Position numbers and translations under genes: made by a program. The notes beneath the pieces were generated by a model, which saw only the letters and a list, made by a program, of their open reading frames with translations, had not been told where the DNA came from and did no database searches. Source: a virus. From it: a DNA stretch of 32,168 bases. Location: positions 1-32,168 of IMG/VR virus record IMGVR_UViG_3300017776_000084. One strand, written 5' to 3'. The stretch's first letter is position 1. Each line of letters begins with the position of its first letter. Below, in pieces: positions 9,770 to 31,653 of the stretch.

Positions 9770-9777
9770 TATAAATA
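9770..9777 (+). promoter_or_regulatory. T4-type late promoter box (first of two)
   Basis: An exact TATAAATA lies in the 49-base gap after the helicase gene, 16 bases before a second copy. This is the -10 element read by the gp55-type late sigma factor in T4-like phages. Predicted start is about 9783. Confidence 0.6.
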
Positions 9778-9785
9778 GTAATGTC

Positions 9786-9793
9786 TATAAATA
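9786..9793 (+). promoter_or_regulatory. T4-type late promoter box (second of two)
   Basis: An exact TATAAATA ends six bases before the ATG at 9800. A late start about six bases past the box would fall at or next to the ATG, giving an almost leaderless late transcript. Confidence 0.65.
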
Positions 9794-9799
9794 CTATCC

Positions 9800-11353
9800 A
9801 TGAGCACAAGCAACTTTAAAGATTTCATTAAAGAAGATATTTCAACAGGTTCACTTGATAAAGCCACCTTCTTAATTGCAAAATATCTCAAACGTAAAAC
9901 TGGATATTCATTTTTCCAGCTTCCAGGCATAGAGAAATTTTCAGGTGGTTCATCAGGTGGTGGATCTGGTATTCGATTGTTTTCTGGCAAAGGTAATATT
10001 AGTATTCGATTCAACTGGAAATCCAGTGGTCCTACTGCATCAAGCCTTTCTTCTATTGACATTTGGCTCAATAATAAGCAGCCTTTTTATCTCGAGTTTG
10101 AGAAAACAACTGGTCTAGTAAAAACCATTCCACTTGTTGCCAACATTATTAATGCTGGCGGCCCAACCAATAAAACCGTTTATACTTTACCCGATGGGGT
10201 ATCACTTAATGAACACATGGAGCCATCCTTCAGGTTTGTTCATCTTAACGAGGCCAAGGCTGCTATAGGCGACGTTGGTGGAATGTTTGACGACATTGTT
10301 GAAATGATGACCGACTCTGGCTTTTCAAAGGGGATGGTTTATAAAACATACAAAAGTGCTGGGGTTAAGGTTTTTGATGCGATTGTCGGTTTACATCCGA
10401 AGCTCATGCAAAAGAAAGGAACCGCATTTAAGTTTGTAGGTAAACCTGCAGACCTTGCTAAGGTTAAGAATTCAAAAGATGATATTCTACTTACAATCGG
10501 TTGTACAAAAGGAACTGTTAAGCGTGGATCTGCTGGTGAAAAATATGCTGATAACAGTAACGCCGATGCTCTTATGGCAGATCGTGACCGCATCAGCTTT
10601 GAGAAGCAACTTGAAGATTTAGAAAACCTTCTCAAACTAACTGTTAACGGCGCAGCCAATGCAATCTTTATTGCTGGTCGAGGTGGTGTTGGTAAAACAC
10701 ACACAACCGAAAAGGTTCTTGCTGACATGGGTCTGCGAGACGGATCAGGATACTTTAAGAACACTGGTAGTACAACTGCTGCAGGTATGTATTCTCTACT
10801 CTTTCGTTACAAGAACGATATCATTCTTTTTGATGATAGTGACGATGCCTTTAAGGATCAGGAAAGTAGAAACCTTCTCAAGGCTGCAACTGATACCAAA
10901 AAGATTCGGAAGCTCGTTTGGAACAAAATGGGTAAAAACGTTGTTGATCCTGAAGAGGATATCACGGACGAAGAAATGCTTGACCAAAATCTCATTCCTC
11001 GTTATTTTGAGTTTACTGGTAAGATCATTTTTATTACCAACCTTAAAATGCAAAAGCTGGATCCAGACGGTGCGCTAAGAACACGCGCATACATCATTGA
11101 CATTGATCCAACTGAAGCAGAGATTTATGACTTTATGGATCAGATTGTTGATAAGATTAAATTAGAAGACGGTCTGACCCTTGATTTGACAAAAAGGAAA
11201 AAGGTTGTGGATCTTCTTCGTAAAGGTAAGAGCAAGCAAGAACCAAACCTTCGTAAACTCAGCCGGGGACTGAATATGGCTGCAGGTGCTCTTTCTGCTG
11301 GGGTTGCTGTAAAAGACGGTGATCTCCGGCGAATGATTGAAACTTACGCGTAA
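9800..11353 (+). CDS. AAA-type ATPase with capsid-targeting-like N-terminus
   Basis: The 517-residue protein begins MSTSNFKDFIKED, similar to the leader of T4 internal head proteins with a possible prohead-protease site I-K-E. Residues 40-60 are a Gly/Ser-rich loop (SGGSSGGGSG), followed by a beta-rich domain. The C-terminal half is a P-loop ATPase: Walker A GRGGVGKT at 293-300, Walker B IILFDD at 341-346, a sensor-like IIFITN, and RTRAYIIDIDP in the arginine-finger area. Its cellular target is unknown. A double late promoter precedes it and a terminator follows. I infer a late, head-associated motor or remodelling ATPase; it is not one of the named T4 ATPases I can recognise. Confidence 0.7.
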   Translation: MSTSNFKDFIKEDISTGSLDKATFLIAKYLKRKTGYSFFQLPGIEKFSGGSSGGGSGIRLFSGKGNISIRFNWKSSGPTASSLSSIDIWLNNKQPFYLEFEKTTGLVKTIPLVANIINAGGPTNKTVYTLPDGVSLNEHMEPSFRFVHLNEAKAAIGDVGGMFDDIVEMMTDSGFSKGMVYKTYKSAGVKVFDAIVGLHPKLMQKKGTAFKFVGKPADLAKVKNSKDDILLTIGCTKGTVKRGSAGEKYADNSNADALMADRDRISFEKQLEDLENLLKLTVNGAANAIFIAGRGGVGKTHTTEKVLADMGLRDGSGYFKNTGSTTAAGMYSLLFRYKNDIILFDDSDDAFKDQESRNLLKAATDTKKIRKLVWNKMGKNVVDPEEDITDEEMLDQNLIPRYFEFTGKIIFITNLKMQKLDPDGALRTRAYIIDIDPTEAEIYDFMDQIVDKIKLEDGLTLDLTKRKKVVDLLRKGKSKQEPNLRKLSRGLNMAAGALSAGVAVKDGDLRRMIETYA

Positions 11354-11442: not shown

Positions 11443-11892
11443 ATGATAGACAAAACTTTACGAATATATGGCTGCAAAGACAAGCCAGACCTGAGAGACG
11501 ATATTCGTGAAGCGTCTAAGTTTTTCATTAACAAGCTGATTCCTCGAAAAAGGATACTTCACATTGCTGTTAAAAGAAGAAAGAATCTTATCAAGAACAG
11601 CGGAACATACGGGGAGTGTTGGCACCTTGATGAACCAAACTGTTTTGAAATATTGGTCGACGCAGACCTTTCTAAAAAGCAAACTCTTACAACCTTGGCT
11701 CATGAATTTGTTCACGTAAAACAATTCTGCCGTAGAGAACTTAAATTCGGTCACAAGATTGATACTTGGTGTGGTAAAAAGTATTACCACGGTGCAGCTT
11801 ATGAATCCCTGCCATGGGAAAAGGAAGCAACCCGACTGGAGACGGTTTTATACGAAGAATTCAAGGTGCATAAAAATAACAATAAAGTATAA
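11443..11892 (+). CDS. Small HExxH zinc metallopeptidase-like protein
   Basis: The 149-residue protein has the zinc-peptidase motif H87-E-F-V-H91 in TTLAHEFVHVKQF, with PWEKEA at 125-130 downstream offering the third-ligand or helix Glu usual in SprT/gluzincin-like phage peptidases. It is basic overall and has no signal peptide or membrane segment, so it should act in the cytoplasm of the host or in the virion. It has its own host-type promoter and lies between two late genes, while a terminator before it isolates it from the ATPase gene. The target is unknown. Its stop overlaps the next gene's late promoter box. Confidence 0.8.
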   Translation: MIDKTLRIYGCKDKPDLRDDIREASKFFINKLIPRKRILHIAVKRRKNLIKNSGTYGECWHLDEPNCFEILVDADLSKKQTLTTLAHEFVHVKQFCRRELKFGHKIDTWCGKKYYHGAAYESLPWEKEATRLETVLYEEFKVHKNNNKV

Positions 11893-11895
11893 ATA
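11888..11895 (+). promoter_or_regulatory. T4-type late promoter box
   Basis: An exact TATAAATA spans the stop codon of the metallopeptidase gene. Its end is five bases from ATG 11901, so the predicted late transcript starts at the ATG. Confidence 0.65.
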
Positions 11896-11900
11896 GTATT

Positions 11901-12995
11901 ATGAAAAGATTTAAGGAATTTTTATCAGAAGCTTATTCTTTCTTTCCAAAATCGGTCGAAGAAATAGAAACTGAGTTAAAGGATTTTTCTACTGATAGCC
12001 AAAATGAAATTAAAGCGCTGTTTACTTTCCTTAGGACAAAGTATCCAAGCGTTTATACTCCTATCAATATTGATAAAAAGAAACAGAATAACGTTAATGT
12101 TACACGCGAACTTCAATCGGAAACCGAGATATCTGATATTGTTTCTGGAGCCGGTATTAAAAAAATTAAGCTCAAGTTCGGTAATGGATCATCCGGTAAT
12201 CGCGGTGTAAATAATCGTGGTAATATATTTGAAGGCGCGTTTGCAAATGCCATAACTACATGGTGGAACGGCGAAGAAGTTGAAAATAAAAGTATGCTTG
12301 CCGCTATTAAAGACCTTGATAAAACATATAAGCTTAGTGATTCAAGTAAGCTAGATGTTAATGTTGTTGGTGGTGAAAACACCAAACGCCCTCTTAAATT
12401 TGGTCCAACCATTATTTTAGATAACCCAAAAGGATCTGGATTCGATATTGGTAAATCAGTTACAGATGTTACACTAGTTACTGATAATCGCGAAATTTAT
12501 CTCAGCCTTAAGTTAGGTACAACTACTACATTCTTCAACGTGGGTGTAAGAAGGATTCTAACTCCAGATCAGATTAAATCCAGTAAGATTACTAATAAAG
12601 ACGGCTTAAATCTCCTTAGCATCTTTGGCATTGACCCTGTCAAATTTTCAGAAGTATTTAATGGTACCAGTAAGGGTAGTGTTGATACTAGAGCAAAGGT
12701 GGATTCCAACAAAATAGAAAAGTTGTTGCAATCAGGAATAGGTTATAACTATCACATCATCCACAAAATGTCAAAGGGAATTCTTTCAAAAGAAATGAAT
12801 CAATCTGCAATGAAGAAAGCAGCAAAGATCGCTGGTGGCGTTACAGTTTATTATGGTGGTAAAACCGGTCGAGGTAAACGCGTTGATGTAGAATTCAAAT
12901 CAGCTTCATATAAATTTAAAATCAACATTAGAGATACCCAAGGTAAAGATGGATACCCGACTCGTATGATGTGTGATTTTACTACAATTAAGTGA
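11901..12995 (+). CDS. Late protein with capsid-targeting-like leader and nuclease-like core
   Basis: The 364-residue protein begins MKRFKEFLSEAYS, which matches the T4 internal-protein leader form with a cleavage site L-S-E before Ala11. The middle shows a pattern consistent with a PD-(D/E)XK fold: NRGNIFEGAF with Glu111, then SVTDVTLVTDNREIYLSLK with Asp189 and Lys204 on adjacent strands. The following FFNVGVRR and a Lys/Arg-rich C-terminus (GKTGRGKRVDVEF) fit DNA binding. Catalysis is not proven; the acidic residue before Lys is replaced by Ser202. I infer a head-packaged nuclease-like or DNA-binding protein. An alternative is an unrelated structural protein. Confidence 0.55.
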   Translation: MKRFKEFLSEAYSFFPKSVEEIETELKDFSTDSQNEIKALFTFLRTKYPSVYTPINIDKKKQNNVNVTRELQSETEISDIVSGAGIKKIKLKFGNGSSGNRGVNNRGNIFEGAFANAITTWWNGEEVENKSMLAAIKDLDKTYKLSDSSKLDVNVVGGENTKRPLKFGPTIILDNPKGSGFDIGKSVTDVTLVTDNREIYLSLKLGTTTTFFNVGVRRILTPDQIKSSKITNKDGLNLLSIFGIDPVKFSEVFNGTSKGSVDTRAKVDSNKIEKLLQSGIGYNYHIIHKMSKGILSKEMNQSAMKKAAKIAGGVTVYYGGKTGRGKRVDVEFKSASYKFKINIRDTQGKDGYPTRMMCDFTTIK

Positions 12996-13001
12996 GAAAT
13001 C

Positions 13002-13526
13002 ATGAACCAAGAAATAGAGCAGGCATTACAATTTCACAAGGACAATAACATTCCAATTTCGGAAAACATTTTCCGTCCTCACACAGAAAATTATTACGCT
13101 CTTTTTCGCGCAGCCCGTTCGTTAAAAGAAGATCTTGATCTTACCTCCTTTGATCGCCATTTGCTCTCAACAGACATTGGCGAGTTTGGTATTTACGAAG
13201 GAGAAGAAGTTCCACTCGACCATCCCTTTATTGCCGAAGCTGAATATAAAGGAAAAGAGGTTGAGTTGGATACCCCCAAGCGAGGCGGTAAAAAGAAATA
13301 CTTTGTTTACGTTAAGAACGATAAAGGTAAAGTAGTTAAAGTTGAATGGGGAGATACAAGTGGTCTTACCGCTAAGATTTCTGATAAAGCTGCTGCTGCA
13401 TCCTTTGCCGCTCGTCACCGCTGTCATTTAAAGAAAGACAGAACAACCCCCGGTTGGTGGGCTTGTAATATGCCCCGCTATGCTAAAGACCTTGGCTTAA
13501 AAGGAGGCGGAAACTTTTTTTGGTAA
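13002..13526 (+). CDS. Conserved phage protein with C-terminal RHRC...WWAC motif, 174 aa
   Basis: The N-terminal half (residues 1-80) is helical and acidic. From about residue 84 a compact domain starts (YKGKEVELDTPKRGGKKKYF), continues through VVKVEWGDTSG and ends ASFAARHRCHLKKDR then TPGWWACNMPRY. This C-terminal domain recurs, from memory, in many marine phage proteins as a small basic domain with Cys and Trp at fixed places. Its role is unknown to me. A putative cleavage site for the prohead protease is not obvious. Six bases separate it from the previous gene, and it shares that late unit. Confidence 0.65.
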   Translation: MNQEIEQALQFHKDNNIPISENIFRPHTENYYALFRAARSLKEDLDLTSFDRHLLSTDIGEFGIYEGEEVPLDHPFIAEAEYKGKEVELDTPKRGGKKKYFVYVKNDKGKVVKVEWGDTSGLTAKISDKAAAASFAARHRCHLKKDRTTPGWWACNMPRYAKDLGLKGGGNFFW

Positions 13527-13538
13527 AACTATAAACCA

Positions 13539-13546
13539 TATAAATA
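13539..13546 (+). promoter_or_regulatory. T4-type late promoter box
   Basis: An exact TATAAATA lies in the 45-base gap before ATG 13572. The predicted start, about 13552, leaves a 20-base leader. Confidence 0.6.
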
Positions 13547-13571: not shown

Positions 13572-14717
13572 ATGAAAGAATCTTATAACAGAGACCCATT
13601 AATTCAAACTGCTGAAGGCTTAATGCTAACTGAAGATGTTGCTAAAATTAAAAAGAAAGTGGCGCAGCTTAAAGTTGGTGATAAAACAAACTTTGGAGCA
13701 GTACTTGATATTGGCGACGAACATATTACATTTAAAGCTCCACAAACGCCTAAAACCAAAATTCTTTTTCGTCAGAGGGCATTGGGTAGGTCTGCCTACC
13801 TACTAATGAATCTTGTCAAGTATACTCCAGATGGTAAGAAACTTGACAAGACATTCAAAGAAGCCAACGATTTTACTGGAGCTGCTGCCGCAGCTGCCGT
13901 GGCTGGAGAAGATGAATTTGAATTTAATGGTAAAACATATCCAGTTGAGATGGATTTAGAGGTTGCTAAAAAGATTATGTCCCAATCACTGAAGCTTGCA
14001 AAACAACTTGCAAAGGACATGGAAGAAGACACGGATTTTATTGAAAGTAACGAGTTTGTTGGCGCAGCTGCCGCAGCCAAGGTTGCTGGTAAAGATGAAT
14101 TTGAATTCAATGGTAAAACATATCCTGTTGAAATTAGTCAAGAGACCGCTGAAAAGATTATGTCTCAAGCTATTGACCTTGCTAAAGATCTTGCAAAGGC
14201 TAAGAAAGAGGAGTCCACCGATCTTGAAGAAGAGACGGGCTCATTAAAAAATTCACTAAAGGTTCTTGCTAAAGCTGGAATCAGAGGTCGTCTAGTAAGT
14301 GATATGCCAAAGTTTGCTAAAGCCATTCGTAAAAATTACAAAGCTATTACTGGTGAAAAATATCAAGATGGGGATCAAGTTGCCATGAGCGAAATCATTG
14401 CAGATCTTATTGGCCACTTTAGAATAGATGGAGATGAATTCATTACTGCTTGGGATAGTACCATTAGAGAAGGCGCCGAACTTGAAGAATCAGAACACGG
14501 TGAATGGTTTACCGCTGAAATGAAGGTTAAGTCCAGTGGGCAGCTTTACTCAACCTTTTATGTTCAAGCCAAAGACATAGGCCAAGCAAATAAAAAGGCT
14601 GAAAAGGTATTTAAAGAATTGATGAAAACATCCTACCCCAAGGATTGGCCAACTTACTCAAAGAAGTTTACCCTTAAGGTCGTAAAGGGTGATAACATGG
14701 GTGAGCTGATGCCGTAA
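13572..14717 (+). CDS. Multi-domain late protein with tandem Ala-rich repeat
   Basis: The 381-residue protein has a basic N-terminal region (1-97) with a candidate protease site L-T-E at 19-21. Two tandem copies of a 61-residue unit follow, each beginning F-x-G-A5-6 and containing DEFEFNGKTYPVE and an EKIMSQ-type helix. After DLEE at 207-210 comes a helical module (about 215-300) with GEKYQDGDQV, and after ELEE at 303-306 a C-terminal alpha/beta module (WFTAEMKVKSSGQLYSTFYV) to the end. The LEE sites between modules look like prohead-protease sites. No enzyme motif is visible. A head or core-associated role is inferred from late promoter, context and sites. Confidence 0.6.
   Translation: MKESYNRDPLIQTAEGLMLTEDVAKIKKKVAQLKVGDKTNFGAVLDIGDEHITFKAPQTPKTKILFRQRALGRSAYLLMNLVKYTPDGKKLDKTFKEANDFTGAAAAAAVAGEDEFEFNGKTYPVEMDLEVAKKIMSQSLKLAKQLAKDMEEDTDFIESNEFVGAAAAAKVAGKDEFEFNGKTYPVEISQETAEKIMSQAIDLAKDLAKAKKEESTDLEEETGSLKNSLKVLAKAGIRGRLVSDMPKFAKAIRKNYKAITGEKYQDGDQVAMSEIIADLIGHFRIDGDEFITAWDSTIREGAELEESEHGEWFTAEMKVKSSGQLYSTFYVQAKDIGQANKKAEKVFKELMKTSYPKDWPTYSKKFTLKVVKGDNMGELMP
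13866..14204 (+). repeat. Two-copy tandem repeat within the Ala-rich protein gene
   Basis: Unit 1 covers about 13866-14021 (residues 99-150) and unit 2 about 14049-14204 (residues 160-211), with a 183-base period. The core DNA GATGAATTTGAATT followed by ATGGTAAAACATATCC is almost unchanged between copies, while flanks differ mostly at third positions. This indicates an in-frame duplication kept under selection. Confidence 0.85.
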
Positions 14718-14738
14718 TAGGAAATACAGATAAGCAAT

Positions 14739-16550
14739 ATGCAACCCTATACAGATCAAGAGAAAGAAGGTAAAAAGATTAGAACCTTTTCCGCAGGCGT
14801 GGAAAATGAAGAACTTATTTGGCATAGGGATAAGACGCACCGTGAAGTAACGGTTGCTGAAGGAACAGGTTGGTTCTTTCAACTAGATGAAAGTGTTCCT
14901 TTTGAATTAAAGAAGGGCCAATCACTTTCAATTCCCAAGATGGAATGGCATCGGTTGTTTAAGAAAGGCGATTCAGACCTTGTACTTGAAATTGTTGAAT
15001 CATATATACCTTCTTTTAAAAACATTGTTGAAGCTCCCAAACTTTCTAAAGGTTATGGTGCAGGTTTAGGCGACTCAACCAAAGACAAGCGTCGGGCCCA
15101 GTTTAATAAGCAGGCTAAAATGGATGACGACGATCCCGCTGCTTATAAACCTGCACCTGGAGATGCAAGAGGTAAAACCAAACCAAGTAAATATACAAAG
15201 GCCTATAAGGACATGTTTGGTGAGAAGGTTGAATACTATTCAATGCCAGAACTCAAAAAGCAGTTGAAAAAAGAATATGGCTCAGAGGCTTCTTCTCTCA
15301 AGATTGTAAAGGTTAAAGGCCGGGGTCGAACCCAGAGTGTATCTATCCAAACACCATCCGGTCAAGAACTAGATAGATATAATAATGTACCTGGGTTGGG
15401 CTACACACTTGCTGAAGACACAGAAGACACAAAAGGAATAGGCACTGACGGACTGGCAAAAAATTACAAAAAGATTACTCCAGGCCAAAGCGTTGAAGAA
15501 AAACTGGACCCTAAAAAAGACGATGCAGGGGATTATATCAAAGACTTTATGAAGTCAGATGCTCCTCAGTTTAAAGGGAAGTCTAAAGAAAAGATACGCC
15601 AAATGGCCGTTGCCGCTTACCTTGACGATAAGGATGCGCTAACAGAAAAAACCATTAAAGGTCTTGAAAAGAAAGCTGACGAATCTGGTGTTGCATACGA
15701 CATCTTAAAGAAAGTATACGACCGAGGAATGGCTGCTTGGAGAACTGGCCACCGCCCAGGGACTACTCCACAGCAATGGGCTTTTGCTCGCGTTAATTCC
15801 TTTCTCACTGGCGGTACAACTCAAAAGACAACCGATGCTGACCTTTGGAAAAAACACAAAGGTAAAAAGGAATCTGTTGAGTTGGAAGAAAAGGAAATCT
15901 CTGAGGCGAAGCACATGAAGTTTAATAAAAGAACTTTGCTCCGCACTATGAAAAAGCCTGAAGGGGTTATTCAAACAAGCGATGGTGGTCAGTATACAAT
16001 TTATCGACCAAAGCAAACCAAACAGGGTTTCAACACCAGTGATTTGTGGCAAGATAAATCCATCATTGCTTTACCTATTCCGGCTTGGCCAGGTGGAGAA
16101 GTTGAGATTAATTACGATGATATCACTCAATACAGCGAGACGTATCACGAAGAATCACTTAAGCCAACTCCAGCGTTAAAACAAAAACTGATAGAGGTTG
16201 CCGGACTTACTTCCGCAACCGCGGAAAAGATTTTGGCTCTGCCGCAACCAATGCTGACCACAGTTATTAACCAACTTCTTACAGCTGAGGTTCACCATGA
16301 AGATACATCCAACAATGAAGTTGATCTCATTCTTGAACGAGGTAAAACATATATCTTAAAGCAAGATAGAGATGATTACGACAGGGGTGTATTGGTAACC
16401 ATGAATGAAGACGGCAGCTATGAAATGGCTTATTGGGTTGGAGATAAATATGAACCTTACCCTATTGAAATGCTTGTTGACGGAAAGTCCATAAAGAAGG
16501 ATGGACGAATTGCAAAGTTTAATTACCACCCTACAGTACCTAAAACATGA
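14739..16550 (+). CDS. Cupin-led multi-domain late protein, possible polyprotein
   Basis: The 603-residue protein is a chain of small modules. Residues 1-90 look like a cupin: ELIWHRDKTHREVTVAEG and later PKMEWHRLF supply the two conserved strands with His. IVE98-A ends this module. Residues 100-165 contain GKTKPSKYTKAYKDMFGE; 165-222 is a basic alpha/beta module; LAE226-D follows. Residues 250-372 match a DUF5824-like domain (WRTGHRPGTTPQQWAFARVN). ISE389-A comes next, then a module at 391-470 that is paralogous to part of the protein encoded at 21973-23046, a helix-hairpin-helix-like stretch (480-515), and an SH3-like end (532-595). The [I/L]-x-E sites fall between modules, as if processed by the prohead protease. 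It has no leader peptide of the MKSF type. The 4-base overlap with the next gene suggests coupling. Confidence 0.6.
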   Translation: MQPYTDQEKEGKKIRTFSAGVENEELIWHRDKTHREVTVAEGTGWFFQLDESVPFELKKGQSLSIPKMEWHRLFKKGDSDLVLEIVESYIPSFKNIVEAPKLSKGYGAGLGDSTKDKRRAQFNKQAKMDDDDPAAYKPAPGDARGKTKPSKYTKAYKDMFGEKVEYYSMPELKKQLKKEYGSEASSLKIVKVKGRGRTQSVSIQTPSGQELDRYNNVPGLGYTLAEDTEDTKGIGTDGLAKNYKKITPGQSVEEKLDPKKDDAGDYIKDFMKSDAPQFKGKSKEKIRQMAVAAYLDDKDALTEKTIKGLEKKADESGVAYDILKKVYDRGMAAWRTGHRPGTTPQQWAFARVNSFLTGGTTQKTTDADLWKKHKGKKESVELEEKEISEAKHMKFNKRTLLRTMKKPEGVIQTSDGGQYTIYRPKQTKQGFNTSDLWQDKSIIALPIPAWPGGEVEINYDDITQYSETYHEESLKPTPALKQKLIEVAGLTSATAEKILALPQPMLTTVINQLLTAEVHHEDTSNNEVDLILERGKTYILKQDRDDYDRGVLVTMNEDGSYEMAYWVGDKYEPYPIEMLVDGKSIKKDGRIAKFNYHPTVPKT

Positions 16551-17323
16551 AATCATTTAGTTCTTATATTGAAGATATTGCGAGGTTAATTCAAGAAGCT
16601 GAGACACCGTGTCCTCCTGCAACCCAGGATCTTGCAATTAATACAAAGAATCGCGATGCAACAATAAAGAACTATAACTATGGCCCGTTGAATGTATCAG
16701 AGCCAGGGACGTATTGGAAAGACATTGCTAAGTATTGGAAAACAACAGAGAAAGCTGCAAAGGCATCACTTTGCGCTAACTGCGTTGCGTTTGATATATC
16801 CCCAAGAATGCTCGAATGTATGCCGGGTGTAACATCTGATGAAGATGGCGTTCTAGGTTATTGCTGGATGCATCATTTCAAGTGTCACTCTGCCAGAGCC
16901 TGTCATACATGGGCTAAAGGTGGTCCTATTGATAAGGATGATGTTTCTCATGAATGGGCTAAGCGCGCTGGTGAACCTTATTATAAAGAAGCCACGGAAA
17001 GAATTCCTCGCGAAAAAGGTCAACACACTGGTTCGTCTTCTCACTCTGATTTATATACAGACGAAGATCCTGAAGGAACAATTCACGGGCTAGGTTTTAA
17101 AGATCCTGAGACTGCAAAGAAAGGAATTGCTATTATAGATAAAGCTGATAGAACCCACGCTCATAAAGTTCAAGCTACACTGGTTATGCAGCAAAGAGCA
17201 AAGGTTGCTATTGAAAGAACCAAGGATCCCGAAAAGAAAGCAAACCTTAAAGGTGCTTATGATATTTGGACAGACCATTTAGAGAAGCTGAAAAAAATTA
17301 CTCAGCAGAAAAACCAATCTTAA
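16547..17323 (+). CDS. HiPIP-like Cys-rich late protein with capsid-targeting-like leader
   Basis: The 258-residue protein begins MKSFSSYIEDIARLIQEAE, a leader with a candidate cleavage site I-Q-E17 before Ala18. Residues 40-125 hold C76-A-N-C79, C91, C106, then C113 and C119 in GYCWMHHFKCHSARACHTW. The CANC start and the 2-11-14 spacing resemble high-potential iron-sulfur proteins, although a zinc site is also possible. The C-terminal region (about 150-258) begins HTGSSSHSDLYTDE, continues GLGFKDPETAKKGIAIIDK and is a helical repeat-like module rich in Lys. Start ATG overlaps the previous stop. I infer a metal-binding, head-associated protein; redox activity is untested. Confidence 0.6.
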   Translation: MKSFSSYIEDIARLIQEAETPCPPATQDLAINTKNRDATIKNYNYGPLNVSEPGTYWKDIAKYWKTTEKAAKASLCANCVAFDISPRMLECMPGVTSDEDGVLGYCWMHHFKCHSARACHTWAKGGPIDKDDVSHEWAKRAGEPYYKEATERIPREKGQHTGSSSHSDLYTDEDPEGTIHGLGFKDPETAKKGIAIIDKADRTHAHKVQATLVMQQRAKVAIERTKDPEKKANLKGAYDIWTDHLEKLKKITQQKNQS

Positions 17324-17327
17324 ACCC

Positions 17328-18434
17328 ATGCAAGACTTTGAAAAATCATACGACAATTTAGCTGAAGCTGCTAAAGATATCTTTAATCGTAATGCACGTA
17401 AGATGCGCGGTAAGATTGAAGAAGAAGAACATCAAACGATTAGTGTTGTAGCACCAAACTCTCAAGCTTATGAAGTAGATGGTATTGGCAATGCTGACTT
17501 GAATCTTGTTCGTGGAGGAAAGTATGTTTTTGAAGTAGATGCAACAGGACATCCGTTTTACATTAAGACAGATAAGACCGGTGGCGAAGGTGATCAATAC
17601 ACGGATGGTGTAACCAATAACGGACTTGAAAAAGGAACACTTGAATTTGAAGTTCCTGCTGATGCTCCAGATACTCTTTACTATGTTTGCGCATATCATC
17701 CAGTTATGGTTGGTACTCTTAACATTACTGATACCGCCGAGATTGAAGAAGGTACAGAGTTTGTAAAAGGCGATGTCGTTATGGATGTCAGAACAAAGCT
17801 CAAGGGAACAGTCCTGCACAAAGGTAATAAAGACGACGTCTTTGTAAAGTTTGGAAGTATTACTAAAGGTATTTCTGGAAAAAACCTTCGTCTTGTCGAA
17901 TCCATCGAACTTGAAGAGGCAGTAAATCTTCAAAGTGGTTTCGGTTTTAGAGGAACCGTTGATATCGGTGGTATAGATTACAAGACCCAACTTGATCGCG
18001 TTGTTAAACTAATTAAAAAGACACGCATTCTCAAGTCCGATAAAGATATTATAGAGTTCTTGGAGAGCGGAATGGGTAGGGAACTCGGAGAAATCATTGT
18101 TGGTCAACACTCCAGACTTAGTCCCTCTGCTCGTAAAAACGATGCACCCCTTGTGTTATTCTTAAAGAAGCAGCTTCCTATTTGGGATTCACTGGGAGAA
18201 GACACCGATCTTGAAGAAGGAACTGGTAAGTATAAAGGAGAAACTTGGGAACAAGGATTCGAGCGCAGGGTTATTAAAACTACCAAACCCGAGCACATTG
18301 AAAAAGGTTTCAAGTGGCGTATCAAAGGTAAAGAACGCGACGAGATTTCTATCAAGCTTTATAAAAACAAGCCCGACTTTAAAGAATTTACAAAGCAAAT
18401 GAAGCGGGTTGCCGGACATGAGTTCGGTGGATAA
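17328..18434 (+). CDS. Cupredoxin-like (blue copper) multi-domain late protein
   Basis: The 368-residue protein starts MQDFEKSYDNLAEAAKD, with a candidate protease site L-A-E13. Residues about 36-136 form a plastocyanin-like domain: GHPFYIKT with His75, then YYVCAYHPVMVGTLNI with Cys121, His124 and Met127. These are the four residues expected of a type 1 copper site. A site I-E-E141-G follows. Residues 142-190 look SH3/KOW-like (KGDVVMDVRTKLKGTV). LEE197-A, a helical module to 290, LEE297-G and a short basic C-terminal module complete it. A copper electron-transfer domain in a late phage protein is unusual. Whether copper binds, and whether the sites are cut, is inference. Confidence 0.65.
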   Translation: MQDFEKSYDNLAEAAKDIFNRNARKMRGKIEEEEHQTISVVAPNSQAYEVDGIGNADLNLVRGGKYVFEVDATGHPFYIKTDKTGGEGDQYTDGVTNNGLEKGTLEFEVPADAPDTLYYVCAYHPVMVGTLNITDTAEIEEGTEFVKGDVVMDVRTKLKGTVLHKGNKDDVFVKFGSITKGISGKNLRLVESIELEEAVNLQSGFGFRGTVDIGGIDYKTQLDRVVKLIKKTRILKSDKDIIEFLESGMGRELGEIIVGQHSRLSPSARKNDAPLVLFLKKQLPIWDSLGEDTDLEEGTGKYKGETWEQGFERRVIKTTKPEHIEKGFKWRIKGKERDEISIKLYKNKPDFKEFTKQMKRVAGHEFGG

Positions 18435-18449
18435 ATTTTAATCACCACT

Positions 18450-19865
18450 ATGGAATCATTCAAAACTTATTCTTATTTAGATGAAGAGGCTATCAAGCCT
18501 GACACGTTAAAGCTATTGGTTTTAACTTCTGCTAAAGAAGGCGAAGAACCTACAATCAATAAACTTGAAGATATTTGCGCTAAGAAAAAAATTAAACTGT
18601 ATAGAATTGTATCGGATAAAGCATATGCGTCCAAAAAGGACGAGCAAAAAGAAACACTAGTCATTCATAACTACGATGGCCAAGGGGAAAGTTTGGAAAT
18701 TGACCGCAATGAAGATGTGGTATGTATAGCTCGGAGAACGGTGGTTACAAATAGAAACGCCGCCGTTTTACATTCAATGTTGGCAGATCACGGAGTGTTT
18801 TGTATTAACTCCCCTCAAAGTGTAAAGACCGCAAGTAATAAATTTAGTTCTTACATTAACTTTGTCAACGATAACGTTCCCACTCCCAAAACGTGTTTGG
18901 TTACAGATATTGAATACATCGACAAAGGTATTGAAGAAGTTGGTGGAAAGTTCCCTCTTATCTTAAAGTTTACTGAAGGTCACGGCGGTAAGGGAGTTAT
19001 GAAACTTGAAACCAGGGAAAGCCTGGTGTCAGTTATACAAGCAATTCAAGCTGAGCCTGAAAGCAACGTTGAATTAATACTTCAAGAGCTTAAAAAGATT
19101 AAAGACGATAGAAGAATTCTTGTATTAAACGGTCAAGTTATTGCGGCAAGTAAACGTAAAAAGATGGCTGATGACTTTCGTACAAACGTTTCTCTGGGTT
19201 CTGACGTAGAGCCACACAAGCCGAACGATAAAGAAATGGAACTCGCGGTGAGAGCTGCTAAGTCTGTGGGTTGTTATTACTGCGGCGTTGATATTATTCA
19301 AGTCGATGGTGAGTATTTTGTTTTGGAGGTTAACCCTTCACCAGGGTCTAAATCAAATTACTTTGATGTGGAAAAACAAAAAGTTATAAACGGAACTGCA
19401 CTGGTTCGTAAACTTGTTGACAGTACACTTGAGAAAGAGAACTGGACTTACGAGACCAAAGAGGTCGGCGTTATAGAATACATGAAGATTTTAGACGACG
19501 ACTTTAAACTCATGACCGCTAAAATGGATACGGGTAATGGTTCGGTAAACTCTATTGGTGTTACTGATTTAAAGATAAAAGGAAACGTTGCTGAGTTTTA
19601 TATTCAAGACACCAAACACAAACTTACAAAAGAGATATTACCTAAGACTTCCGTTATTAAAGTACGAGGTGATAAAGGCAATCCTGAAAGACGGCCGGTT
19701 GTAATGTTTGATGTTAAGCTGGGCAACAGGGTTTATAGAGATGTTAAGTTTTCCTTAGCCGATAGAAATAATATGGACCACCCGATTTTGGTATCTGCTA
19801 AATTTATGGCCGCTTGCAAGTTAAGCGTTAATCCTAATAAAGAGTTTGTTTGCTGTATGCCATAA
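18450..19865 (+). CDS. ATP-grasp (RimK-like) and retropepsin-like (RimB-like) fusion
   Basis: The 471-residue protein begins MESFKTYSYLDEEA, a head-leader-like start with L-D-E12. Residues about 90-325 form an ATP-grasp ligase: LILKFTEGHGGKGVMKL at 170-186 (Gly-rich ATP loop, Lys173), LILQELKKIKDDRRI near 209, and VDGEYFVLEVNPSPG with the metal-binding Glu293 and Asn295. RimK-type enzymes add amino acids, often Glu, to protein C-termini. Residues about 340-471 match the RimB-like retropepsin family: AKMDTGNGS with Asp360-Thr-Gly, ERRPVVMFDV, and FSLADRNNMDHPILVSAKF. Paired ligase and protease in one chain suggests attachment and removal of a peptide tag. It is a late gene; the substrate is unknown. 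Confidence 0.75.
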   Translation: MESFKTYSYLDEEAIKPDTLKLLVLTSAKEGEEPTINKLEDICAKKKIKLYRIVSDKAYASKKDEQKETLVIHNYDGQGESLEIDRNEDVVCIARRTVVTNRNAAVLHSMLADHGVFCINSPQSVKTASNKFSSYINFVNDNVPTPKTCLVTDIEYIDKGIEEVGGKFPLILKFTEGHGGKGVMKLETRESLVSVIQAIQAEPESNVELILQELKKIKDDRRILVLNGQVIAASKRKKMADDFRTNVSLGSDVEPHKPNDKEMELAVRAAKSVGCYYCGVDIIQVDGEYFVLEVNPSPGSKSNYFDVEKQKVINGTALVRKLVDSTLEKENWTYETKEVGVIEYMKILDDDFKLMTAKMDTGNGSVNSIGVTDLKIKGNVAEFYIQDTKHKLTKEILPKTSVIKVRGDKGNPERRPVVMFDVKLGNRVYRDVKFSLADRNNMDHPILVSAKFMAACKLSVNPNKEFVCCMP

Positions 19866-19868
19866 ATA
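19861..19868 (+). promoter_or_regulatory. Possible late promoter box (one mismatch)
   Basis: CATAAATA differs from TATAAATA at the first base and ends 12 bases before ATG 19881. It overlaps the stop of the previous gene. The placement mirrors the exact boxes before other late-module genes, but the mismatch lowers confidence. Confidence 0.35.
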
Positions 19869-19880
19869 AATTACAACACA

Positions 19881-21116
19881 ATGAAATCATTTAAGACATA
19901 TATCACCGAAGCTTCGGGAAAGAATACCCACATGACGCATATTGAAGATGCGGTATTATACGGTGGAGTTAAAGGAGCAAAGGAAGCAATTACCGCGCTG
20001 CGTTCGTTAAGAGACATGCTTGCAGGAAATGCAAAGAGCAGCAGTGATGTTACTGTCAAATGGGATGGTGCTCCTGCAGTGTTTGCTGGTATTGATCCAA
20101 CCGATGGCCAATTCTTTGTTGCTAAAAAAGGTATCTTTAATAAAGATCCAAAGGTATACAAATCTGAAGCAGATGTTAAAGCTGATACCAGTGGCGATCT
20201 GCAAGCAAAGTTGATTGTTGCTTTTAATGAACTTTCCAAACTTGGAATTAAAGGTGTCTTGCAAGGTGACATGATGTATACCAAATCGGATCTTAAACCA
20301 CAAAAGATCAACGGTGTTCCTTATATTACTTTCCAGCCAAACACGATTGTTTATGCTGTTCCTGCCAATACTCCTGGTGGTAAAAAGATTAAAAGTTCAA
20401 AGATGGGTATCGTATTTCACACATCCTATTCAGGTACTTCATTCGAGAATATGAAGGCTTCGTTTAACGTTGACATTAGTTCCTTGAAACCTACTTCAAC
20501 TGTTTGGTATCAAGATGCACGAACTCCTGACCTTAGCGGTACTGCATTAATGGATGCAGACGAAACCAAAGAAGTTACAGCCGCCCTTTCAAAGGCTGGT
20601 AAGATTTTCCAAAAGATTGCGGGCTCAACCCTTAAAGCGATTGAAGCTGATCCACAACTTGCACAAACCCTTGAAACTTATAACAACACGTTTGTTCGTA
20701 AAACTGAAGAGTTACCTGCTGATTCGAAGAAACACGTTGATGGTCTTATAAAGTGGTCCACAGAGCGCTATAAAAAAGAGCGCACTCAACGTAAAAGCGA
20801 AAGAGGCAAAGAAGGTGTGAATAAACGAGAAGAAGAATTTATGAAGTTCTTCTCCAAAGAAAATAAGACTAACCTTGCTTTGATCTACGACCTTCAGAAG
20901 GCTATTGTTGCCGCCAAGCTTATCATCATTAAGAAGCTTGACTCTCTTAAAAAGATTAATACATTTATTCGTACCAAGAACGGGTTTAAAGTTACGGGTC
21001 AAGAAGGGTTTGTTGCAATCGACAAAACAGGCGGGGGCGCGGTTAAACTCGTTGATCGTCTCGAGTTCTCTACAAACAATTTCAGTCCTGACGTACTTAA
21101 AGGTTGGGACCATTAA
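19881..21116 (+). CDS. Ligase-like nucleotidyltransferase (DUF6267-like) with capsid-targeting-like leader
   Basis: The 411-residue protein starts MKSFKTYITEASGKN, the closest match here to the T4 internal-protein leader, with a site I-T-E10 before Ala11. A nucleotidyltransferase pattern follows: K60-W-D-G63 (motif I KxDG with candidate adenylated Lys), FFVAKKGIFN, GVLQGDMMY, KMGIVFHTSY, and C-terminal EGFVAIDKTGG then AVKLVDRLEF in the places of motifs IV and V. This is the layout of ATP-dependent DNA and RNA ligases. From memory it matches a family annotated DUF6267 in marine phages. A ligase or end-adenylating enzyme carried in the head is the inference; the substrate is unknown. Confidence 0.7.
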   Translation: MKSFKTYITEASGKNTHMTHIEDAVLYGGVKGAKEAITALRSLRDMLAGNAKSSSDVTVKWDGAPAVFAGIDPTDGQFFVAKKGIFNKDPKVYKSEADVKADTSGDLQAKLIVAFNELSKLGIKGVLQGDMMYTKSDLKPQKINGVPYITFQPNTIVYAVPANTPGGKKIKSSKMGIVFHTSYSGTSFENMKASFNVDISSLKPTSTVWYQDARTPDLSGTALMDADETKEVTAALSKAGKIFQKIAGSTLKAIEADPQLAQTLETYNNTFVRKTEELPADSKKHVDGLIKWSTERYKKERTQRKSERGKEGVNKREEEFMKFFSKENKTNLALIYDLQKAIVAAKLIIIKKLDSLKKINTFIRTKNGFKVTGQEGFVAIDKTGGGAVKLVDRLEFSTNNFSPDVLKGWDH

Positions 21117-21121
21117 ACCAC

Positions 21122-21129
21122 TATAAATA
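21122..21129 (+). promoter_or_regulatory. T4-type late promoter box
   Basis: An exact TATAAATA lies in the 23-base gap before ATG 21140. The predicted start of about 21135 gives a five-base leader. Confidence 0.62.
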
Positions 21130-21139
21130 CAGTTAGTAA

Positions 21140-21955
21140 ATGAAATCATTTAAGCAATTTAAAGAAGAAACTGTAAAAGAATTGGTTGTCACCTTTGGGC
21201 GATTTAATCCTCCTACCGTAGGACATGGAAAGCTATTAAAGAAAGTTTCTAATTTAGCAAAAGGAGCTGATTATAGAATCTATTCTTCGCAATCAATTGA
21301 TCCTAAAAAGAACCCTCTTAAGTATACAGATAAGGTAAAGTTTTTAAGGAAGATGTTTCCTGAACATGGAAGAAACATTATTCTGGACAAGGGTGTTAAA
21401 AGTCTTTTTGATGTGGCGGATAAAGCGCATTCAGATGGTTACAACAAGCTAACAATTGTTGTTGGCAGTGATCGCGTTCCTGAGTTTAGAGCCTTGATTC
21501 CAAAGTATAACGGTGTTAAAGGTCGCCACGGATTTTACGATTTTGAATATGGCATTGAAGTTAAAAGTGCGGGTGAACGCGATCCTGACTCAGATGATGC
21601 TGTAGAGGCCATGAGCGCAAGTAAGTTGCGAGCGGCAGCAGAAGATAACGATTTAAAAACCTTTTCTCTAGGTATGCCTAAGAACTTCCGTGGGGTTACT
21701 GATCTCATGAATGCTGTTCGCAAAGGAATGGGACTAAAGGAATCAACAAATTTTAGAAAGCACGTTGAACTTGAAACAAATCAAGTGCGTGAACAGTATA
21801 TCTCTGGCTCAATCTTCAATATTGGAGACACCGTGTTTAATAAAAAGGACGAGCAGGAATACACCATCACTGAAAGATTTGCAAATCATGTCTCAATTAA
21901 AAACGATCGAACCACAAGTAAAGCATTTATTCAAGACTTAACTGTAATAAATTGA
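21140..21955 (+). CDS. NMNAT/cytidylyltransferase-like nucleotidyltransferase with SH3-like tail
   Basis: The 271-residue protein begins MKSFKQFKEE, sharing the first 14 bases of its gene with two other late genes. The HxGH-family nucleotidyltransferase motif appears as GRFNPPTVGHGKLL at about 21-34 (Thr for the first His, as is common), and the second motif as EAMSASKLRAAAEDND, with the S-x-S-x-L-R form. T4-like marine phages carry this gene as a putative cytidylyltransferase. Residues 218-271 add a small beta domain (SIFNIGDTVFNKKDEQEYTI). It may transfer a nucleotide to a small phosphate such as NMN; the substrate cannot be told. The leader suggests packaging, although no clear [I/L]-x-E site is present. 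Confidence 0.8.
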   Translation: MKSFKQFKEETVKELVVTFGRFNPPTVGHGKLLKKVSNLAKGADYRIYSSQSIDPKKNPLKYTDKVKFLRKMFPEHGRNIILDKGVKSLFDVADKAHSDGYNKLTIVVGSDRVPEFRALIPKYNGVKGRHGFYDFEYGIEVKSAGERDPDSDDAVEAMSASKLRAAAEDNDLKTFSLGMPKNFRGVTDLMNAVRKGMGLKESTNFRKHVELETNQVREQYISGSIFNIGDTVFNKKDEQEYTITERFANHVSIKNDRTTSKAFIQDLTVIN

Positions 21956-21970
21956 TAAATAGTATAAATC
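21954..21970 (+). promoter_or_regulatory. Possible overlapping late promoter boxes
   Basis: GATAAATA (21954-21961) and TATAAATC (21963-21970) are each one base off TATAAATA and lie just before ATG 21973. The first overlaps the stop of the previous gene. One or both may serve the next gene. Confidence 0.4.
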
Positions 21971-21972
21971 AT

Positions 21973-23046
21973 ATGAAAACATTAAAAGAAATACTTAACG
22001 AATCTGCCCACGACTCGTCAATAGAAAAGCAAAACGATAACATTGATGCGAAAGCTGATGAAGGTTCTTCTAAAGATCTTAAGGCTATTTCTGCAGGAAT
22101 GTTTACTAAAAGAACTTTGATCCGCTCCATGAAGCACTCTGAAGGTGTTATTCAATTGGCCAGTGGTAAACAATATACAATTTTTAATCCAAAGTCTGAA
22201 GATCAGGACACTGAAGGAATGTTCCAAGATGATATGGTTTTTGCAATTGATGCTGATGGTAACGAAGTTAAAGTTGAATACAAAGAAATCACTTCTTACA
22301 ACGAAACATACCACGAAGATGAAGCTGGTGCTCCTCGAAGAATGACTTACGATGATGCACACCAGCCCAAAACTAAAATGGAGCTGATGGCTGCCGTAAA
22401 GAGAGAACTTCGTAGCATGAAGGTTGCTGATGTAAAAGCTTCTTACCAGTATATTAAAGCTGCCCATTGTAATACTAGAGAAAGTATGCACGGAATGGGA
22501 ACAAAGAAGGATACGTTAATGGCAATGATGAAGGATCTTAAAGGCATGAAAGCAAGTGCCCTTAGAGCTTCTTACGAGTACATTAAAGCTTCTCATTGCG
22601 GACCTAGAGAAGGTGCTCACGAAGATGAGATGGTTAATGCTGGTGCTCATCGCGATGATCTGAAACATCCTAAGCCACAGCCAGTGATGGCAAGCCACTG
22701 CACAGAAGAAACCGAAATTACTGAAGCGATTAACTTTAGTAAAGTCCCTGATGATCAATTGATTAAATGGATTAAAGTACTCGGATTGGCTAAAAACAAA
22801 CCTAAGGCACCTTGGACCGATTATCCACAAGATATGGCTGCTGCTGAAAAAGAAGCTAAAAAACGTAGGCTTACGTTTGAAGCTGTTGAGCTTGAAGAGA
22901 TGAAGACCAAAGATGACGACCTTGCGGTTATGATCTACGACTACATCGGCGCAGACACTGAAGGACTTCCTTTGAAGACGCTTATCATGCAGGCCGTTGG
23001 TAAATACTTTGGCTCTCAAAAAGTTGACGGCCCAGTTGGAGGTTAA
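21973..23046 (+). CDS. Multi-domain late protein with capsid-targeting-like leader and helical repeats
   Basis: ATG 21973 (MKTLKEILNESAHD) was chosen over an upstream TTG because it gives a head-leader-like start with L-N-E10 before Ser11. Residues about 41-116 are a module paralogous to residues 391-470 of the protein encoded at 14739-16550: both have FTKRTL or FNKRTL, then EGVIQ, QYTI, an acidic insert, YNETYHE or YSETYHE. Residues 136-171 and 180-214 are two copies of a helical unit ending in Y-I-K-A-x-H-C. IT-E251-A and LEE309 mark further possible cuts before C-terminal modules. The 357-residue protein has no enzyme motif. The gene is late, and a stable hairpin follows it. Confidence 0.6.
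   Translation: MKTLKEILNESAHDSSIEKQNDNIDAKADEGSSKDLKAISAGMFTKRTLIRSMKHSEGVIQLASGKQYTIFNPKSEDQDTEGMFQDDMVFAIDADGNEVKVEYKEITSYNETYHEDEAGAPRRMTYDDAHQPKTKMELMAAVKRELRSMKVADVKASYQYIKAAHCNTRESMHGMGTKKDTLMAMMKDLKGMKASALRASYEYIKASHCGPREGAHEDEMVNAGAHRDDLKHPKPQPVMASHCTEETEITEAINFSKVPDDQLIKWIKVLGLAKNKPKAPWTDYPQDMAAAEKEAKKRRLTFEAVELEEMKTKDDDLAVMIYDYIGADTEGLPLKTLIMQAVGKYFGSQKVDGPVGG
22378..22614 (+). repeat. Two-copy helical repeat in the gene at 21973
   Basis: Units encode residues 136-171 and 180-214. Each has L-M-A, a KxL-xxMK core and a C-terminal A-S-Y-x-Y-I-K-A-x-H-C-x-x-R-E. The match is clear in protein and weaker in DNA, indicating an older duplication than that in the gene at 13572. Confidence 0.75.
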
Positions 23047-25637: not shown

Positions 25638-26615
25638 ATGCCAACAATATTTGAAGAACAGATCAGCCGGAAACCCAACCAATACCCTTGGACAGAAGAA
25701 TTCATTGAATCAATGCACAACGGATTTTGGACGGATAAAGAATTTAGTTTTAAGTCGGATGTCCACCAATTTAAAACAGTACTAACAGATCAAGAAAGGG
25801 AAATCATTGTTCGTACCCTTTCAGCAATTGGACAAATTGAAGTAGCAGTGAAAAGCTTTTGGGCTAAGCTTGGTGAGAACCTTCCCCACCCCGCACTGCA
25901 AGACCTTGGCTATGTTATGGCCAATACAGAAGTGATTCACAACAACGCGTATGAGCGCCTTCTCAAGGTTCTTGATATGGAGGACATCTTTGAAGAGAAT
26001 TTAAAACTTGATTGGATTCAGGGTCGGGTTAAGTATCTTCGCAAATACACTCACCGCTTTTACAAGGATAGCAAAAAACAGTATCTTTATGCCATTACCT
26101 TGTTTACTTTGCTGGTTGAAAACGTTTCGTTGTTTAGTCAATTCTATGTTATTAACTGGTTTGCCAGATACAAGAATGTGCTAAAGGATACTGATCAGCA
26201 GGTTAAGTATACTCGTCAAGAAGAGAACATTCACGCCATGGTTGGTATGAAAATTATCAACACTATTCGTCAAGAACTTCCTGAGCTGTTTGATGATGAG
26301 CTTGAAGCGAGAATTGTTGGTGCAGCTGCTGACGCGTTTAAAGCCGAAGCTAAGATTGTTGACTGGATGATTAATGGTATTCAAGAGCCTGGTTTAAATG
26401 CCGATATTCTTAAAGAGTTTATCAAGAATAGAATTAACAGCAGTATGGACATGATAGGTTTTACAAAGCCTTTTGAAATTGATCAAGATTTGATTGCTGA
26501 AACCATGTGGTTTGAAGAAGAGCTACACGGAAACAACATGACTGACTTTTTTCACTCTCGTCCAGTGGAATATTCAAAGAAGAGTCAGTCGTTTGATGAA
26601 GACGACCTCTTTTAA
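25638..26615 (+). CDS. nrdB: Ribonucleotide reductase, small (radical) subunit
   Basis: NrdB holds the di-iron tyrosyl radical that starts ribonucleotide reduction for dNTP supply. The 325-residue protein shows the metal ligands: Glu68 (in IGQIEVAV, a position often Asp), Glu98 and His101 in TEVIHNNAY, Glu161 in LLVENVSLF, and Glu196 and His199 in EENIH. The radical Tyr is Tyr105. The C-terminus DEDDLF is the acidic tail that docks on NrdA. It is encoded before nrdA with a 28-base gap, driven by its own promoter. The reverse order (B then A) and marine T4-like context are normal for phage copies. Confidence 0.95.
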   Translation: MPTIFEEQISRKPNQYPWTEEFIESMHNGFWTDKEFSFKSDVHQFKTVLTDQEREIIVRTLSAIGQIEVAVKSFWAKLGENLPHPALQDLGYVMANTEVIHNNAYERLLKVLDMEDIFEENLKLDWIQGRVKYLRKYTHRFYKDSKKQYLYAITLFTLLVENVSLFSQFYVINWFARYKNVLKDTDQQVKYTRQEENIHAMVGMKIINTIRQELPELFDDELEARIVGAAADAFKAEAKIVDWMINGIQEPGLNADILKEFIKNRINSSMDMIGFTKPFEIDQDLIAETMWFEEELHGNNMTDFFHSRPVEYSKKSQSFDEDDLF

Positions 26616-26643
26616 TAAGAGTGATATATAATTTAAATACATA

Positions 26644-30981: not shown

Positions 30982-31653
30982 ATGCAAAACGAAGATAACA
31001 AATCAACTGAGGCTATGGGATTGGAAGATATCTTTAGCGGAGGAAAGCAAAATAACTTTTCCGGCGAATACGGATCCCTTATGGATTTCTATTTGTTGGG
31101 TTCTATTGGCGAAGCTTCCGAATACATTGAATGGTTTCACAAGATTCGCAACGCAAGACCAACCGATATAATTAACATTCATATTAACTGCCCTGGCGGT
31201 AACCTATTTACAACTGTCCAATTTCTTCAAGTACTTAGCGAGTGTAATGCACATATTAATATGAATGTTACTGGAGCTTGTATGAGTGCTGCAACTTTAA
31301 TCTTTCTTCAAGGTGATGACTTTGTAATCAACGAACACAGCGCCTTTCTCTTTCATAACTACAGCGGCGGGATGATTGGTAAAGGTGGAGAGATGTATTC
31401 AAATGTGATACACGATCGTAAGTGGTCTGAAAAGCTTTTCCGTTCTCAATACGAAGACTTCCTTACAGCAGAAGAGATTAGCAACCTTGTTGATGATAAA
31501 GATATTTGGATGGATGCCAGCACTGTGGTTGAACGACTCCAAGCGAGGAGCGACGCTCGTGATGAAGAACTTGAAGTTGAAAAGGATGGTGTAAAAGAAA
31601 CCCCTCCTAAGAAGAAGACTACCAAGAAGAAGACTACAAAGAAAACCAAATAA
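30982..31653 (+). CDS. ClpP-like serine protease with Lys-rich tail
   Basis: The 223-residue protein has the ClpP fold signature: INCPGGNLFTTVQF (oxyanion loop), TGACMSAATLIF with the nucleophile Ser102, and AFLFHNYSGG with His125. The acidic third residue is less clear. The last 14-15 residues repeat KKTTKKK, an unusual disordered basic tail that may bind nucleic acid or membranes. T4-like marine phages often carry ClpP-like genes. The bacterial ClpP partners with Clp ATPases; no such ATPase gene is seen here, so it may use the host's or act alone. A weak AAGGA lies upstream of ATG 30982. Confidence 0.85.
   Translation: MQNEDNKSTEAMGLEDIFSGGKQNNFSGEYGSLMDFYLLGSIGEASEYIEWFHKIRNARPTDIINIHINCPGGNLFTTVQFLQVLSECNAHINMNVTGACMSAATLIFLQGDDFVINEHSAFLFHNYSGGMIGKGGEMYSNVIHDRKWSEKLFRSQYEDFLTAEEISNLVDDKDIWMDASTVVERLQARSDARDEELEVEKDGVKETPPKKKTTKKKTTKKTK

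Follow-up and report, generated by a model that had tools for sequence, protein, structure and literature searches.

Among the genes lying between about 9.8 and 23 kb of the window (the whole stretch of viral DNA analysed, 32,168 nucleotides, a 32-kb piece of a T4-like marine myovirus), several appear to encode chains of modules with the short motif [I/L]-x-E at the joints, which raises the question of what these proteins are and whether the motif marks sites of cleavage. The initial annotation read the late proteins as polyproteins that a prohead protease would cut at domain borders. The cluster is flanked by helicase and reductase genes (Table 1), and three other phages (Pelagibacter phage HTVC008M, Methylophilales phage Melnitz and Synechococcus phage S-SM1) have a homologous cluster behind their UvsX and helicase genes; further along the window, a gene that we read from its sequence as a ClpP-like protease occupies 30982-31653. 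Having compared the window with 181 related loci (designated by L numbers), we conclude that the cluster products are probably head-targeted cargo, several of them polyproteins whose exchangeable modules meet at predicted prohead-protease sites. The sequence features that point in this direction are targeting-like N-termini, the joint motif, the exact exchange of cassettes, the gp21 of the relatives and late promoter cores.

Table 1. Genes, predicted cut sites and promoter cores of the window. A slash marks a predicted cut; in the text, genes are named by their first nucleotide.
Feature	Position	Strand	Remark
UvsX/RecA-like gene	6927		named from sequence reading and synteny
DnaB-like helicase	8347		named from sequence reading and synteny
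T4-type late promoter core TATAAATA	9770..9777	+	5' of first cargo gene; second copy 9786-9793
Single cargo gene, AAA+ ATPase-like	9800..11353	+	N-terminus MSTSNFKDFIKE12/D
Late promoter core TATAAATA	11888..11895	+
Cargo gene, phrog_8438	11901..12995	+	canonical targeting MKRFKEFLSE10/A
Small protein with AEYKGKEV domain after IAE79	13002..13526	+
Predicted cut site IAE79/A	13230..13238	+
Late promoter core TATAAATA	13539..13546	+
Polyprotein with two FVGAAAAAK..EFEFNGKTYPV repeats	13572..14717	+
Predicted cut site LEE220 (13572 product)	14223..14231	+
Predicted cut site LEE306 (13572 product)	14481..14489	+	extra cassettes there in L001, L003
Polyprotein: cupin, FNKQ module, extra cassette, DUF6321-like, DUF5824, KRTL module, helical module, beta-rich C-terminus	14739..16550	+
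Predicted cut site IVE98/A	15024..15032	+	behind cupin
Predicted cut site LAE226	15408..15416	+	near end of cassette missing from L001
Predicted cut site VEE254/K	15492..15500	+	before DUF6321-like module
Predicted cut site LTE303/K	15639..15647	+	before DUF5824; kept in 50/54 internal DUF5824 copies
Predicted cut sites LEE384, ISE389/A	15882..15905	+	next module missing from L001, L002
Cargo gene: Cys-rich domain and C-terminal helices	16547..17323	+	targeting-like MKSFSSYIED...LIQE17/A
Polyprotein: targeting-like N-terminus, cupredoxin, modules B, C, D	17328..18434	+
Predicted N-terminal processing site LAE13/A (17328 product)	17358..17366	+
Predicted cut site IEE141/G	17742..17750	+	start of module B; L065 lacks B exactly
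Predicted cut site LEE197/A	17910..17918	+	start of module C; L004 lacks C exactly
Predicted cut site LEE297/G	18210..18218	+	start of C-terminal module D
RimK-like ATP-grasp and putative zinc-protease domain	18450..19865	+	targeting-like MESFKTYSYLDE12/E
DUF6267 protein (KWDG motif)	19881..21116	+	canonical targeting MKSFKTYITE10/A
Late promoter core TATAAATA	21122..21129	+
Cytidylyltransferase-like nucleotidyltransferase	21140..21955	+	F4/F7, MKSFKQFKEE, no canonical site
Polyprotein; module content varies in L002, L006, L100	21973..23046	+	targeting-like MKTLKEILNE10/S
Predicted cut site ITE251/A (21973 product)	22717..22725	+
Predicted cut site LEE309/M (21973 product)	22891..22899	+
Ribonucleotide reductase genes	25638-28293		named from sequence reading and synteny

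A route into the head is suggested by the N-termini. Of 894 non-redundant proteins with full starts from the related loci, 10.4% have an [ILM]xE that ends at residue 10; the body background is 1.26%, and the value for the reversed motif 1.0%. The targeting pattern is matched by 125 proteins, against 10 +/- 3 in shuffles. Proteins with [ILMV]8-x-E10 carry an aromatic residue at position 4 in 68% of cases and at position 7 in 62%, compared with 25% and 20% of all proteins. This is the arrangement of the T4 internal proteins IPI-IPIII and Alt, in which a 10-residue N-terminus has aromatic residues at 4 and 7, Leu or Ile at 8 and Glu at 10, often with Ala after the cut; propeptides of this class span 10-19 residues, and T4 IPII and IPIII themselves start MKTYQEFIAE/A (T4 record). 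Mutations in IPIII indicate that residues 4 and 7 matter for targeting and residues 8 and 10 for processing; in T4, Asp at position 10 stops processing while still permitting targeting (PMC9026906). About eight cargo genes of the window have a T4-type targeting N-terminus: canonical in 11901 and 19881, in close variants in 9800, 16547, 17328, 18450 and 21973, and with the targeting part only, lacking a canonical cut site, in 21140. No canonical N-terminal targeting sequence was found in 13002, 13572 or 14739. A T4-type targeting sequence accounts for the way in which its bearers would get into the head. Because the N-termini in the window match the T4 internal-protein pattern, LAE13 and LNE10, previously listed among the domain-border sites, are better understood as the ends of targeting peptides than as joints.

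Several variations on this N-terminal theme were observed. In the loci, 54 proteins have F or Y at positions 4 and 7 without the canonical site; the nucleotidyltransferases (21140 and its counterparts in L005, L017 and L009) likewise combine F4 with F/Y7 and no canonical cut (MKSFKQFKEE, MKSFKQFNEE, MKSFKEYNED). The 16547 product, MKSFSSYIED, has Asp at position 10, and LIQE17/A, seven residues on, is possibly a displaced processing site. In L060 and L064, a complete targeting-like sequence, SMTFEDYIVE/N, lies within a longer chain, as would result from the fusion of two cargo genes. The S-SM1 homologue of the DUF6267 protein (L206, 17296-18270) starts MCDSTLSCYNN, without a targeting sequence; hence targeting is not universal in the DUF6267 family.

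As for the internal sites, those named in the initial annotation lie at the residues given there except for LEE210 of the 13572 product, which is really LEE220, and LTE21 of the same product gained no support of its own as a joint site. The number of motifs per protein does not exceed that in shuffled copies of the same proteins (11 versus 6.9, p 0.07, for 14739; 9 versus 5.5, p 0.08, for 17328; 4 versus 5.2 for 21973), and the count alone is therefore meaningless and was dropped as evidence. The placement of the sites at module joints, in contrast to their number, is non-random. At 1534 mosaic breakpoints identified by BLAST in 298 non-redundant proteins, picked without regard to the motif, an [ILM]xE cut coincides exactly with the break at 3.65 times the rate seen at random positions, compared with 1.4 times for the reversed motif E.[ILM]; neither [ILM]xK nor [ILM]xD is in excess within 8 residues of these breakpoints. 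The breakpoint signal is positive but noisy, and the set of "other" proteins is also somewhat enriched, partly because unrecognised or truncated cargo sat in that set.

A second test used 38 distinct cassette indels of at least 25 residues between close relatives. [ILMV]xE lies within 5 residues of 51 of their 76 ends (null 15.8, s.d. 3.6, maximum 27 in 500 draws) and at both ends of 19 of the 38 cassettes (null 2.4, maximum 7), whereas neither [ILMV]xD (8 of 76 ends, null 11.1) nor [ILMV]xK (16 of 76, null 23.9) is in excess. The 17328 product, with its order cupredoxin, B, C, D, illustrates the exchange: near-identical genes lack exactly B (L065) or exactly C (L004), and both are joined at an LEE linker. 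A negative control for the cassettes is provided by the helicase of L116 (ORF 636-2402), in which an intein-like insertion at the P-loop (residues 196-339, with a CVHPDTK start and an SHN end), of a kind not related to the cassettes, has no site at either end.

A complementary view is given by 16 modules whose seeds were chosen by eye, so that their counts are weaker evidence than the breakpoint and cassette-indel tests, which are free of that choice. The motif stands at the start of internal copies of DUF5824 (50 of 54), the nucleotidyltransferase (8 of 9), DUF6267 (5 of 5), the C-terminal module (23 of 28) and the kinase-like module (6 of 7), against about 0.2 in random windows; the FNKQ module is an exception, with no upstream site signal (12 of 53 copies). 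Moreover, DUF6267, the nucleotidyltransferase, DUF5824 and the AEYKGKEV domain occur both alone behind a targeting sequence and internally behind the motif. Thus DUF5824, internal behind LTE303 in 14739, is a separate 90-residue protein with the N-terminus MITFKKYLEE/K in phage C48C1, and the AEYKGKEV domain, behind IAE79 in 13002, directly follows the targeting sequence in L059 (MKKFSEYINE/ATYKGRKV); in 11 of 21 copies the domain starts precisely at the cut. Conversely, L059 encodes a DUF6267-nucleotidyltransferase fusion joined at VMNE/A; in the window these are two separate genes, and both have a targeting-like N-terminus.

These data have to be weighed against the possibility that the chains are ordinary multidomain proteins with acidic disordered linkers, in which only the N-terminal targeting sequence is processed and [IL]xE is a by-product of linker composition. 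It is true that E, D, S and K abound in the linkers, that the motif totals do not exceed those of shuffled proteins, and that other E-ending motifs are also raised at the 76 cassette ends, [AFGPSTY]xE at 34 (null 20.5) and [DEKRNQ]xE at 41 (17.9), i.e., 34-41 against 18-20 expected. The reversed motif, too, is found at 37 of the 76 ends (null 14.7), because the common ESVELEE-type linker contains it. Acidic joint linkers thus raise every E-ending motif about 1.7-2.3 fold, and nothing beyond the further rise to 3.2 fold and the choice of E rather than D is specific to the motif. Linker acidity accounts for part of the signal but neither for the hydrophobic P3 residue nor for the E-over-D preference: [ILMV]xE is raised most, [ILMV]xD not at all although D is common in the linkers. 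Furthermore, where modules stand behind different upstream partners, the motif is at the joint in 66 of 83 contexts (23% in random windows), compared with 33 of 83 for [AFGPS]xE, and [ILM]xE is depleted in module bodies (57 versus 111 expected, with 156 reversed motifs there), whereas non-cargo proteins have 1570 [ILM]xE and 1513 reversed motifs. We accordingly regard a by-product of linker composition as an unlikely explanation; the polyprotein reading held up in the breakpoint, cassette-indel and unrelated-context tests, any of which could have gone against it.

Two other interpretations concern what the linkers and the chains are for. If the linker DNA were a recombination site, repeated linker codons would allow module swaps and the peptide motif would be incidental, in keeping with the crossovers of 17328 in the CTTGAAGA-coding linker. 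Among 130 distinct linkers, however, there are 89 different 9-mers and 37 tripeptides, the Leu and Glu codons of the sites match the background of the same genes, and conservation extends to the P3 and P1 residues but not to the DNA. Because the site codons match the background and the linker 9-mers vary, selection, as judged from the sequences, is on the joint peptide and not on DNA; we give hardly any credence to an incidental motif, while a DNA recombination site and cleavage may coexist. Alternatively, the proteins could be core scaffolds comparable to T4 gp22 or gp67/gp68, which gp21 would cut to pieces for removal from the head instead of leaving them there as folded cargo. The T4 scaffolds do carry many [ILMV]xE sites and are cut into several fragments (PMC9026906), but the sites in the window are sparse, spaced by modules and depleted inside conserved modules, the modules include DUF5824, a cupin, a cupredoxin and a P-loop kinase-like domain, and mature virions still contain a homologue that bears the nucleotidyltransferase domain. 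A scaffold role is, on these grounds, decidedly improbable.

Returning to polyproteins of head cargo, the internal sites were located in structure models. In AlphaFold2 models of modest quality, built on thin alignments (mean pLDDT 61 for 14739 and 56 for 17328), IVE98, LAE226, ISE389, IEE141, LEE197 and LEE297 all lie in segments with pLDDT below 50; LTE303 is inside a continuous predicted helix of the 14739 model. The cupin and cupredoxin folds proposed earlier are borne out by Foldseek, which matched 14739 to cupins and 17328 to cupredoxins, and the DUF5824 domain was confirmed by Pfam. Release of the cupin in the head is the weakest part of the polyprotein reading, because the 14739 product has no N-terminal targeting sequence; SFKNIVE/A, behind the cupin, might be taken from its sequence to resemble a shortened internal targeting sequence. 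In the 13572 product, the FVGAAAAAK..EFEFNGKTYPV module is duplicated (residues ~100-210), and it also occurs in many proteins of the relatives. The 19881 product has no [ILMV]xE beyond its N-terminal targeting site; PDB sequence searches with 19881 and 21140 gave no match, leaving DUF6267 without a solved relative by sequence, and its conserved KWDG motif resembles the KxDG lysine motif of nucleotidyl-transfer ligases. The 18450 product would place a protein-modifying enzyme among the possible head cargo. A search of the phages collection with 21973 gave no match.

Neither Peptidase_S77 nor gp21 was found in the window, which is uninformative since the window is a 32-kb fragment. Among the longer contigs of relatives, gp23 is present in 10 of 17, and the S77 protease gp21 in those same 10 of 10. 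The gp23 N-termini of the relatives have [ILV]xE at about residue 40-65 (e.g., LNE/A, ISE/T, LSE/A), comparable to the propeptide end LTE/A of T4 gp23. Late expression is suggested by the T4-type promoter core TATAAATA, of which the window has six exact copies against 2.1 expected, all on the plus strand and five of the six directly 5' of cluster genes; across the loci, a core within 60 bases precedes 27% of genes with a targeting sequence, 10% of the others and 1.4% in shuffles.

Taken together, we envisage that the T4-type N-terminal sequence would carry most cluster products into the prohead core, where the prohead protease of the gp21 family would remove it after [LI]xE and, in the polyproteins, would also cut at the module joints to yield a set of small folded modules; these would be kept in the head with the DNA and probably be ejected into the next host. 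The cargo genes themselves acquire and shed modules as cassettes that run from one site to another. Cleavage, head location and ejection of the window proteins are inferred from homology to T4 and from the virion proteome of one homologue: the putative cytidylyltransferase T4-GC190 was detected by mass spectrometry in purified S-SM1 virions (Sullivan et al., PMC3037559). Its gene starts MKKFSAFLNE/A; membership of the same family makes it a homologue of 21140.

The cluster would work like the T4 internal-protein system, with which it shares the tested sequence features and the late promoter core, the gp21 family being present in the relatives; its multi-module cassette form is new. A T4 internal protein consists of one module and is cut once, at its N-terminus (Alt also undergoes C-terminal processing), whereas here several modules share a chain, with the motif at each joint and exchange of cassettes. 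T4 gp22, gp67 and gp68 likewise have several gp21-type sites per chain; these scaffolds, however, are site-dense and their fragments are mostly removed from the head, while the cluster sites are mainly at module joints. Polyvalent proteins also combine unrelated activities in one multidomain chain, and packaging in the head followed by ejection has been predicted for them (PMC5512222, Iyer et al. 2017); two or more unrelated domains per chain are found in 14739 (cupin, DUF5824 and others) and 17328 (cupredoxin and others). Polyvalent proteins are predicted to be processed by a metallopeptidase of the same chain, which is frequent among them though not universal, in contrast to the prohead protease proposed here to act in trans at [IL]xE joints. 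No peptidase family was found by Pfam in 13572, 14739 or 17328, and 21973, scanned with PHROGs only, had no match there; the zinc-protease-like domain sits in 18450, a protein separate from the polyproteins. In SPN3US and phiKZ, which have many ejected head proteins, the prohead protease also cuts after E in a short motif, but this is A-x-E or S/A-x-E, and 13 of 14 SPN3US sites remove an N-terminal propeptide rather than separate modules. A literature search of partial coverage, which does not prove absence, found no phage polyprotein cut by a prohead protease.

For the marine T4-like phages (Kyanoviridae and relatives) in general, we lean towards the existence of a cassette system for head cargo in which the borders of modules, protease sites and recombination coincide, so that a small protein placed between two [LI]xE joints in any head-targeted gene would be loaded, freed by gp21 and delivered. 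If this is true, dozens of small effectors would be delivered from only a few genes, and the set would turn over rapidly. Phages of this kind abound in the sea, and the majority of their modules are annotated as 'hypothetical protein' or DUFs; the targeting N-terminus together with the [LI]xE joints would predict which of these proteins accompany the DNA into the host and at which residue every mature piece starts, and would explain the mosaic look of the cargo genes. The cargo of T4-like phages other than T4 is thereby testable on the existing isolates HTVC008M, Melnitz and S-SM1. Furthermore, the arrangement would offer a natural means by which a single gene supplies a phage head with several proteins.
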